Assembly: GCA_001648575.1 (NCBI GenBank)
Contig: LQXN01000060.1
Coordinates: 124,001-188,000, forward strand
Source of the DNA: Sutcliffiella horikoshii DSM 8719
GTDB lineage: Bacteria > Bacillota > Bacilli > Bacillales > Bacillaceae_I
Length of the DNA: 64,000 bases
Direction of reading: 5' to 3'
The notes beneath the pieces are model-generated. The model worked only from the letters and a program-made list of their open reading frames with translations, searched no databases and was not told where the DNA came from. Each line of letters starts with the position of its first letter. The first letter of the stretch is position 1. The translations under genes and the position numbers were made by a program. Shown one piece after another: positions 61,334-63,931 of the stretch.

Positions 61334-61680
61334 CACGTCAGAACACCCTTTCATTCACATGTATTTATAGTATCCAACTTTTAATCAAATATCAGATATG
61401 AATAGTCCGAAAAGAACATTTTACCATAACAGAGTTGGAATAGCTTTTGCAAGGGTTGGGTTAACTACTATTCGCAGGAAGGTTGACGTTTAAGGGGGTC
61501 TTTTTAAGGATCTTGGTTAAATGAATGTTTAGTAGGAGAAAATCGACAAAAATAATGTTTTTCTTTTTTTAATTTTTTACCCTAAATTAGTCATTTTACT
61601 ATTCAAAAAAACGCTACAAAAGGGAAGAACACTGATTTTAAAGACCTTTTATTCCTCAAAGCATTTTTTAAAAATAATAT
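61334..61680. other. Gene-free A+T-rich stretch upstream of sinI
   Basis: No plausible gene on either strand. The only element I see is ATCGACA (61542-61548), one mismatch from the Spo0A box core TTCGACA. A secG gene expected from conserved order is absent. Confidence 0.6.
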
Positions 61681-61686
61681 AGGACA

Positions 61687-61730
61687 TTCGACATTTATCA
61701 GCAACATTCCAATATTAGTTATTTTATAAT
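61687..61730 (+). promoter_or_regulatory. Candidate Spo0A-activated promoter of sinI
   Basis: TTCGACA (61687-61693) is a perfect Spo0A box (TGTCGAA on the other strand). TATAAT lies at 61725-61730. The -35 region at 17-bp spacing (CAACAT) does not match TTGACA, as at activator-dependent promoters. In B. subtilis, sinI is also transcribed from a Spo0A-P-activated promoter. Confidence 0.7.
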
Positions 61731-61799
61731 AAGTTCAGGGTATAGGAAGGACAATGGTAGCAATACCAAAGTTGTATATCGAATGATTCGAAACAACAG

Positions 61800-61900
61800 T
61801 CAAAGGCAAACTTGCTGAAAGGCAAGGACGCAAAGTCTACAGATCTAAAATTTGTAAATTAAGAAAAAGCTTTTACAGATTATGATGGCTGGGCTGCCTG
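61800..61900 (+). promoter_or_regulatory. Class I c-di-GMP (GEMM) riboswitch aptamer in the sinI leader
   Basis: The conserved blocks are all present in order: AGGCAAAC, helix CTTGCT-GAAA-GGCAAG with GAAA tetraloop, GGACGCAAAG, a CAGATCTAAA block (GGCCTAAA in the consensus), helix ATTTGTAAA / TTTTACAGAT, and GGCTGGGCTGCC as tetraloop receptor strand. These match the GEMM-I aptamer that binds cyclic di-GMP. The aptamer is on the same strand as sinI and 33 bases from its start codon. Confidence 0.88.
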
Positions 61901-61924
61901 AAATACCAAAGTATTTTAGGAGGG
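61897..61924 (+). promoter_or_regulatory. Predicted expression platform: Shine-Dalgarno sequestering hairpin
   Basis: CCTGAAAT (61897-61904) can pair without gap with ATTTTAGG (61913-61920): 8 bp including one G-T pair, loop ACCAAAGT. This covers the first part of the ribosome binding site AGGAGGG (61918-61924). The CCT also forms the 3' edge of the aptamer, so the two states should exclude each other. There is no strong T-run, so translational control is more likely than termination. Confidence 0.6.
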
Positions 61925-61933
61925 AAAAGGACA

Positions 61934-62080
61934 ATGGAGAATGTGACATTAGAAATGACTGAAAATTTAGATAAGGAGTGGGTAGATCTTATTAATAATG
62001 CACTAGAAATGGGTATTTCCTCTGCAGAAATTAGAGATTTCTTACATAATTATCGGAATCATAAATCATTTAAACTCTAA
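61934..62080 (+). CDS. sinI: SinI-like antirepressor of SinR
   Basis: A 48-residue protein, MENVTLEMTENLDKEW...MGISSAEIRDFL..., which matches the SinI dimerisation domain (DxEWVxLxxxAxxxxISxxEIRxFL in B. subtilis). SinI binds SinR one-to-one and frees matrix genes from repression. The ATG follows AGGAGGG. It lies 88 bp upstream of sinR on the same strand, as in B. subtilis. It is preceded by a c-di-GMP aptamer. The gene is too short for routine ORF calling. Confidence 0.9.
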   Translation: MENVTLEMTENLDKEWVDLINNALEMGISSAEIRDFLHNYRNHKSFKL

Positions 62081-62115
62081 TTTTGTGAATATTTACGTAT
62101 TTTCGTTCTAAATAT

Positions 62116-62144
62116 CTAACAATTCCTTCGTTATATGCTATAAT
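62116..62144 (+). promoter_or_regulatory. Candidate sinR promoter
   Basis: CTAACA (62116-62121), 17-bp spacer, TATAAT (62139-62144), 25 bp before the sinR start. This would give sinR expression independent of the riboswitch, as in B. subtilis where sinR has its own constitutive promoter. Confidence 0.5.
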
Positions 62145-62168
62145 AAGCATGATAGGAAGGTGAAAGTC

Positions 62169-62504
62169 ATGATTGGTGAACGAATTAAAAAATATAGAGA
62201 ACAACGCAAAATGTCCATGTCAGAATTAGCAGAACGCGCCGGCGTGGCCAAATCATACCTAAGCTCAATTGAACGGAACCTGCAATCTAACCCTTCTGTT
62301 CAGTTTCTTGAAAAAGTCTCATCAGTACTTGGAGTATCCATGAATACTCTGTTACATGATGAAGACGAAGAACAGGCAAAAGAAAACCTTGACCGGGAGT
62401 GGTCAACCCTTGTGAGAGAGGCCATGGACTCCGGTGTAACCAAGGAACAATTCAAAGAATTCTTAGAATTTAATAAATGGAAAATAAATCAAGAAAATAA
62501 ATAA
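62169..62504 (+). CDS. sinR: Biofilm master repressor SinR
   Basis: A 111-residue protein, the same length as B. subtilis SinR and very similar throughout. The Xre-type helix-turn-helix is at residues ~16-37 (MSELAERAGVAKSYLSSIERN), and the C-terminal tetramerisation/SinI-binding helices are EWSTLVREAMDSGVTKEQFKEFLEFNKW. It represses matrix operons (tasA/calY, exopolysaccharide). ATG 62169 after AGGAAGG is chosen over GTG 62160, which sits in the ribosome binding site. Confidence 0.95.
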   Translation: MIGERIKKYREQRKMSMSELAERAGVAKSYLSSIERNLQSNPSVQFLEKVSSVLGVSMNTLLHDEDEEQAKENLDREWSTLVREAMDSGVTKEQFKEFLEFNKWKINQENK

Positions 62505-62529
62505 TCGCCGACCAGAACTGGTCGGCGAT
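62504..62529 (+). terminator. Hairpin after sinR, left duplicate
   Basis: An 11-bp stem ATCGCCGACCA / TGGTCGGCGAT, loop GAAC, starting at the last base of the sinR stop codon. No T-run follows. The same stem is repeated at 62739-62764. Confidence 0.7.
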
Positions 62530-62738
62530 ACATTGTGTAGACAGAGTAATTTTGGAATTATAAATTCTCTGTTGATCGTAGTGGAAGGAGCGTAGACTCC
62601 TGCGGGAGGAAGGGACAGGTAAGACCCCGCAACGGAGTGAGGAGGCTTACGGACCGCCCGCTGGAAAGCGAAGCTCCTGCAACGAAGATCAACCGTAACT
62701 ATCTGATATTAAAGTATTTAGGTTTGTCAACAATTTGA
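62530..62738. repeat. MITE-like element carrying repeat core, copy 10
   Basis: A 209-bp unit exactly between two identical terminator stems. The core (62570-62693) is nearly identical to copy 3. Left end TGTAGACAGAG and right end GGTTTGTCAACAA form an imperfect terminal inverted repeat. It lies between the convergent sinR and zinc-ribbon genes. Confidence 0.75.
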
Positions 62739-63053: not shown

Positions 63054-63875
63054 TTAATTGGTTCCAGCTACGCGATCTACCTGATTTGCTTCTACATGGA
63101 TCTTAAAGTCCATTTTTGCGTTTTGATATTCGTTGCCTGCAGTTTCCTTAAGGCTAGTTCCGAAAAGGACATGTACATAATGTTGACGGGAAATGGTTTC
63201 ACCAAACAGAATACCTTTTTCCATCACTTTAACCGGATCATGGGACAATGTCCCTACTGAAGCTGCACTAGCTTTCTCTAGCTGAGCTTCAATATATTGC
63301 GCGCTTACAATAGCGGCAACAGGAGTATCCGCTGCTGCTTCTAGAGTTGCTTCAAGTTGCTCTACATCTGCTTCCCCTTCTATCACCACTATCTCCATTT
63401 TAGCGCCGTATAATTCTTGCAACATTTTCTCAAATTCAAGTTCACTCATATCATCTTCTTCTAAGTATGCTCTGAGAGAAGAATCAATAAACTCTGCATC
63501 TTGCACACCACCTGCATCCTTATTGAACACAAAAAGTGCTGTAGATTTATATTGGGAGAAGTCAATATCAGATGAATCTCCATACAGCTTTCCTGTAAAA
63601 CTTGCACTTAAGCTAATGCGGCGATCTGTACTGTTATTTTCAATTGTCTTCCATTCTTCAGCAATCTGAGACCTACTTGGAGCAAGGTAGCCAGAGGAGT
63701 AATCGAAACTAGCTTGTCCTCCACCGACAATCTCCACAATCGCATTTTTCACTTGACCTTGTGCTTTAGTGCTATCTGTAAACCATGAATACGTTCCAAA
63801 TCCCGCTCCTGCCACCAATACCCCTGCCAAAGCTGTACCAAGAACAGCTTTCTTCACACTTTTAATCTTTGTCAT
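63054..63875 (-). CDS. TasA/CalY (camelysin)-family-like secreted matrix protein
   Basis: A 273-residue secreted protein. The N-terminus MTKIKSVKKAVLGTALAGVLVAGAGFGTYSWFTDST is the type processed by signal peptidase SipW in TasA and CalY. The following part (ISLSASFTGKLYGDSSDIDFSQYKSTALFVFN; AKMDFKIHVEANQVD) keeps the beta-rich TasA-like pattern, but the middle with MEIVVIEGEADVEQLEATLEAAAD is longer than in usual camelysin. ATG 63875 after GGGGGAGGAATT is used. Its place near sinR suggests a SinR-controlled fibre or matrix protein. Confidence 0.72.
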   Translation of the reverse strand: MTKIKSVKKAVLGTALAGVLVAGAGFGTYSWFTDSTKAQGQVKNAIVEIVGGGQASFDYSSGYLAPSRSQIAEEWKTIENNSTDRRISLSASFTGKLYGDSSDIDFSQYKSTALFVFNKDAGGVQDAEFIDSSLRAYLEEDDMSELEFEKMLQELYGAKMEIVVIEGEADVEQLEATLEAAADTPVAAIVSAQYIEAQLEKASAASVGTLSHDPVKVMEKGILFGETISRQHYVHVLFGTSLKETAGNEYQNAKMDFKIHVEANQVDRVAGTN

Positions 63876-63931
63876 TACCTTAATTCCTCCCCCAACAATT
63901 TTGATTGCTACCATTTGGTAATATAGTTAAA

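Follow-up and report, generated by a model that had tools for sequence, protein, structure and literature searches.

The covariance model, conservation and the anatomy of the leader give good support to a c-di-GMP riboswitch on sinI, which encodes the antagonist of SinR, downstream of a putative Spo0A-type promoter in Sutcliffiella horikoshii DSM 8719. As judged from the genomes compared in this study, the riboswitch on sinI is real and widely conserved. The predicted structure of the leader makes it probable that the element works as a translational ON switch, and its ligand, its direction, its kinetics and its effect on SinR are inferred. In B. subtilis, matrix production has SinI and SinR as its master switch, whose input is taken to be Spo0A~P. 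All positions refer to the window, that is, the whole stretch of 64,000 nucleotides that was analysed, and the features of the locus are collected in Table 1.

Table 1. Features of the sinI-sinR locus in the window
Feature	Position	Strand	Basis and remarks
Spo0A box TTCGACA (reverse complement TGTCGAA)	61687..61693	+	Letters in sequence; kept in 16/16 genus leaders
-10 hexamer TATAAT	61725..61730	+	Letters in sequence; TATAAT in 16/16 genus leaders
c-di-GMP-I riboswitch aptamer (RF01051)	61795..61901	+	Covariance model; by homology, G20-equivalent at 61805 and ligand-pairing C (presumed C92-equivalent) at 61897
Predicted expression platform hairpin	61894..61923	+	Arms 61897-61906 and 61911-61920, loop 61907-61910; segment MFE -11.5 kcal/mol, z -6.1, in silico
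Shine-Dalgarno AGGAGG of sinI	61918..61923	+	Letters in sequence; pairing probability of the first AGG about 1 in the predicted free leader
sinI, SinR antagonist, 48 aa	61934..62080	+	PF08671 above cut-off; weak matches to SinR/SinI chains 5tn2, 1b0n and 5tmx
Promoter-like site of sinR	62116..62144	+	CTAACA, 17 nt, TATAAT preceded by TG; consensus match 10/12
sinR	62169..62504	+	ATG at 62169; 1b0n_A, E 4.8e-41, query residues 4-112
TasA/camelysin-like secreted protein, probable SinR target neighbourhood	63054..63914	-	By eye

A c-di-GMP-I aptamer in the sinI leader

When the window was scanned with cmscan against Rfam 15, only two matches reached the gathering score, a tmRNA and the c-di-GMP-I aptamer (RF01051) of the sinI leader, which scored 66.6 bits against a cut-off of 35 (E 7.7e-11) and is full length, covering positions 1-87 of the 87 of the model, uncut. 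The sequence-only reading had claimed that a 48-codon sinI gene carries a complete class I c-di-GMP aptamer in its leader and had proposed the Rfam GEMM-I model as a check; the match agrees with it in both class and completeness. The end of the aptamer is separated from the ATG of sinI by 32 bases. At the ligand-pairing position, whose numbering we take to be C92, the window aptamer has the expected base (C61897). The same holds for G61805, the equivalent of G20 (equivalence taken from PMC9262584); of the 79 leaders overall, 77 have a G here.

No in-register pairing beyond position 94 could be found in the aptamers before sinI for the P1 helix that closes the three-way junction. Since the accepted member Cd1 is also described as having no detectable P1 (PMC9262584), the window aptamer remains a member of RF01051. 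An earlier model, in which P1 consisted of GG/CC, was dropped because these bases include ligand contacts by homology and because no in-register P1 was found. The score of the window aptamer is lower than those of other copies of the family in this genome and its relatives (85.8 bits in locus L001). Just 5' of the aptamer, a possible small hairpin (GUUGU ... ACAAC, 61771-61798) was observed, whose flanking letters are largely conserved in the genus alignment. A mini-ORF starting upstream at 61756 was rejected, as its start codon is not conserved in this alignment.

The source genome contains three c-di-GMP-I riboswitches, which are located in the sinI leader, before a gene that appears EAL-domain-like by eye, and before a short ORF, together with five GGDEF matches. 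In several genomes of the genus (L003, L025 and L028), another c-di-GMP-I riboswitch precedes a short similar ORF of about 50-65 codons without the SinI motif.

Promoter, sinI, sinR and their neighbourhood

The perfect Spo0A box and the -10 hexamer reported by the sequence-only reading were confirmed in the letters, the box matching the Spo0A consensus, and transcription would start at about 61737. An exact Spo0A box within 160 nt upstream was found in all 16 leaders of the genus, in 15 of 64 other leaders (shuffle mean 2.4, maximum 8), and in one of 15 riboswitches not linked to sinI. The search was restricted to exact boxes, and diverged ones would escape these counts. According to these sequence counts, the Spo0A box is enriched outside the genus but is not general. 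The link to Spo0A drawn previously is better supported within the genus than beyond it, where the box is patchy.

The product of sinI matches PF08671 with 41.2 bits (cut-off 31.4) and is encoded by a short ORF adjoining sinR; it also matches the stricter NCBIfam SinI equivalog NF046031, at a score below its cut-off (41 vs 80). SinR resembles B. subtilis SinR over its full length (1b0n_A), and its best NCBIfam model is SlrR, under the cut-off of that model (83.6 vs 250). On the opposite strand, convergent with sinIR, the window and locus L227 encode secreted proteins that are TasA/camelysin-like by eye and a signal peptidase. The protein encoded at 63054-63914 scored 18.1 bits against TIGR04088 (SipW-dependent signal peptide; cut-off 19) and had no match in Pfam. 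The signal peptidase-like gene in L227 lies above the TIGR02228 cut-off and below that of the SipW equivalog, and a protein further along the cluster exceeds the cut-off of the model for the SipW-dependent signal peptide and falls short of the one for TasA. The locus resembles the layout in B. subtilis, in which sinI is followed by sinR beside a tasA/sipW-type cluster.

Some further features of this region were recorded. Within the tasA/sipW-like cluster, the C-terminal part of the protein at L227:2730-3446 nearly matches the LPxTATN sorting signal (30.9 bits vs 32). Two further SinI-domain matches (L230 and L231; G000:C63:193979-194214) are located about 7.5 kb downstream of sinR, past this cluster, and none of the three c-di-GMP-I riboswitches of the genome is located there. 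A repeat of about 125 bases (62565-62695) lies directly 3' of sinR and has 44 matches listed in the genome, with 82-100% identity.

Conservation of the aptamer-sinI pair

We searched 18 genomes of the same family, 16 of them from the same genus, and found the aptamer immediately before sinI in all 16 genomes of the genus. In one further genome of the family (G001), no sinI was seen beside the two of its seven aptamer hits that were fetched. For the order, 150 genomes were drawn, 105 of which have PF08671; six of these belong to the same genus and were counted there, 13 without coordinates were left out, and from the remaining 86 we analysed 114 stretches around listed PF08671 places, with further PF08671 places of these 86 genomes mostly outside the count. 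Rfam scanning of all 114 stretches (369,408 bases) yielded 65 c-di-GMP aptamer hits, including 48 of class I, 16 of the variant c-di-GMP-I-GGC and one of class II. All but two of these hits (63 of 65, the exceptions being in L081 and L103) stand 17-39 nt 5' of a sinI start codon. Within the stretches examined, 60 of the 86 genomes and 26 of the 34 families of the order have a linked aptamer-sinI pair, and 26 genomes and eight families have none. A search of related genomes for the aptamer before sinI, as advocated by the sequence-only reading, was thus positive both within the genus and across the order. The 150 genomes contain 558 matches to RF01051, or about one per Mb, and therefore less than one chance hit is expected in the bases scanned. 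It was also observed that 16 of the 63 linked aptamers best match the variant family c-di-GMP-I-GGC, RF03167 (L047, L057, L063, L072 and others).

The aptamer accompanies sinI rather than sinR, because the pair persists in the 16 of 61 linked stretches where sinR is on the opposite strand. In five genomes of one family (f6), the sinI that adjoins sinR has no aptamer, and a sinI located elsewhere has one. In addition, 75 named records showed aptamer-pattern matches before sinI in every case (72 by script and three by eye), although they had been found by a pattern built from sinI leaders (non-coding letters only), so that 75/75 is not an unbiased rate. The aptamer motif itself was found upstream by script in 73 of these 75 records; of the other two, L158 ends at the edge of the locus and L185 has, by eye, a partial aptamer with a long insert.

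Class II aptamers were detected before sinI as well. In family f6, a c-di-GMP-II aptamer precedes sinI at L118:1655-1738 (- strand; 63 bits vs 53.5), and the predicted fold has its 3' end paired with the Shine-Dalgarno sequence, masking the ribosome site. Another one precedes sinI in family f14 (L253:1501-1584, + strand; 72.8 bits). Such arrangements are rare (one of the 30 class II loci retrieved, and one hit in the 114 stretches). That two unrelated aptamer classes recognising the same ligand stand upstream of genes of one kind argues for function. The idea of a swap from class I to class II at one f6 locus was dropped, since L118 has flanking genes unlike those of L121 and L124; the L118 locus is not that of the class I sinI in its genus.

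Predicted expression platform and mechanism

In the free leader, the AGG of the Shine-Dalgarno sequence is predicted to lie inside a hairpin formed with the 3' end of the aptamer, a feature that the sequence-only reading had not included. The predicted mask covers chiefly the first AGG, and the second AGG is mostly free. Among 65 unique segments from the aptamer end to the Shine-Dalgarno sequence, 37 had z < -2 and 43 had z < -1 against shuffles preserving both ends; with z at or above -1 in the other 22, the hairpin is not universal. Covariation of the fixed-register hairpin was not above that of shuffles (379 pairs vs a mean of 372 and a maximum of 387), because the stem hardly varies. When C61897 is kept unpaired to mimic the ligand, one G is freed at a cost of 3.1 kcal/mol; when both C61897 and C61898 are kept unpaired, the cost rises to 6.2 kcal/mol and all but the first A become free. 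No terminator-like site was found on the + strand in 61560-62540. By computation, the leader behaves as a translational riboswitch, in that its ribosome site is masked or open depending on the state and no terminator was found.

These predictions suggest the following course of events. Transcription would start at the Spo0A-type promoter, as the box implies. Without c-di-GMP, the 3' end of the aptamer (61894-61906) would fold onto the Shine-Dalgarno region, and SinI translation would be low according to the predicted structure. By homology with known aptamers, c-di-GMP would pair with C61897 and the pocket would hold the end of the aptamer, so that the AGG of the Shine-Dalgarno sequence is released and SinI is made. 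SinI would then bind SinR and free the matrix genes, as in B. subtilis. At the center of this scheme, c-di-GMP and a G of the Shine-Dalgarno sequence would compete for C61897, the free RNA masking the site and the bound RNA opening it. Such control at the level of translation, not termination, would alter the SinI:SinR ratio with sinR mRNA unchanged. In Cd1, the base captured by the alternative fold is likewise the ligand-pairing C, and the affinity of Cd1 is given as 0.25-1.9 uM (PMC9262584). At equilibrium, a Cd1-like affinity could not pay the computed 3.1-6.2 kcal/mol, and control would therefore be kinetic or aided by tertiary contacts, which the folding program ignores. In B. thuringiensis, high c-di-GMP is stated to have raised sinI expression, in a passage citing unpublished array data (PMC7793685).

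An OFF switch, in which c-di-GMP would lower SinI through a leader arrangement invisible to simple folding, appears unlikely. Its precedent is Vc2, which belongs to the same aptamer family and is described in PMC9262584 as a translational OFF switch, as opposed to the translational ON predicted here, and a bound c-di-GMP-I aptamer can mask a ribosome site; in the sinI leader, however, the predicted mask uses the ligand-pairing C, making binding and masking mutually exclusive, and the class II leader of L118 has the same build. Control of transcription, with the ligand altering premature termination (intrinsic or Rho) or the stability of the leader RNA and with the Shine-Dalgarno hairpin as a secondary feature, is quite improbable. 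Although other Bacillus c-di-GMP riboswitches are described as acting on transcription (Bc2, PMC7423583; Bc1), the + strand around the leader has no terminator-like site, and the short distance between aptamer end and start codon in all 63 linked hits leaves little room for a terminator.

The least probable explanation, and a very unlikely one, is that sinI is under Spo0A alone and that its aptamer either recognises a different dinucleotide (cGAMP, for instance) or is a ligand-less relic. The comparatively low score and the missing P1 of the window aptamer would fit with such a view. The substitution described as favouring cGAMP is G20A (PMC6274999), yet the G is kept in the window and in almost all leaders, and the persistence of the aptamer across 26 families, like the use of a second riboswitch class, would be hard to reconcile with a relic. 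The translational ON switch remains the preferred reading of the leader.

Relation to known systems and implications

The statement of the sequence-only reading that no sinI under a c-di-GMP riboswitch had been described needs to be withdrawn, since Table 4 of Irla et al. 2015 lists "(c-di-GMP)-sinI" for B. methanolicus MGA3, an annotation based on RNA sequencing (PMC4342826). As in the present case, the entry is a putative c-di-GMP riboswitch before sinI, and the role given is control of biofilm formation; it differs in being an annotation for which the passages concerned give no mechanism, direction, conservation or Spo0A link. No other statement of a link between a c-di-GMP riboswitch and sinI was seen in the open-licence literature that was searched. 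As far as these searches show, the riboswitch on sinI is in print for one species, and an experimental test was not found in the open-licence literature. The 14 control genomes, a set that names B. subtilis among its PF08671 matches, contained no match to RF01051, which is probably why the sinI riboswitch has been neglected.

Several systems share parts of the predicted arrangement. Transcription of sinI under Spo0A control is described for sinIR of B. subtilis (PMC3163267). Cd1 is a c-di-GMP-I member that is described as having no detectable P1 and as having its ligand-pairing C in an alternative fold (PMC9262584), but it acts on transcription, whereas translational ON control is predicted for the sinI leader. 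Bc2, which precedes cbpA in the B. cereus group, is likewise a c-di-GMP-I riboswitch of the ON type in Bacillus (PMC7423583); it switches on the transcription of an adhesin gene, whereas the sinI leader would control an antirepressor, through a platform predicted to mask the Shine-Dalgarno sequence. The predicted wiring of the sinI riboswitch would be unusual for a known kind of riboswitch.

The broader picture, in which we place about even confidence, is that across much of the order, B. subtilis excepted, c-di-GMP sets the biofilm decision directly through RNA. The sensor would be a P1-less aptamer whose ligand-pairing C is part of the anti-Shine-Dalgarno sequence, and the same wiring would have arisen again with class II. 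Together with the Spo0A box, where present, it would form an AND gate on SinI with c-di-GMP and the sporulation phosphorelay as inputs, and the textbook circuit of B. subtilis would be the exception. Present on sinI in 26 of the 34 sampled families, a c-di-GMP sensor would put the second messenger atop the matrix decision of the order, and it would explain how c-di-GMP can promote biofilm in these bacteria.
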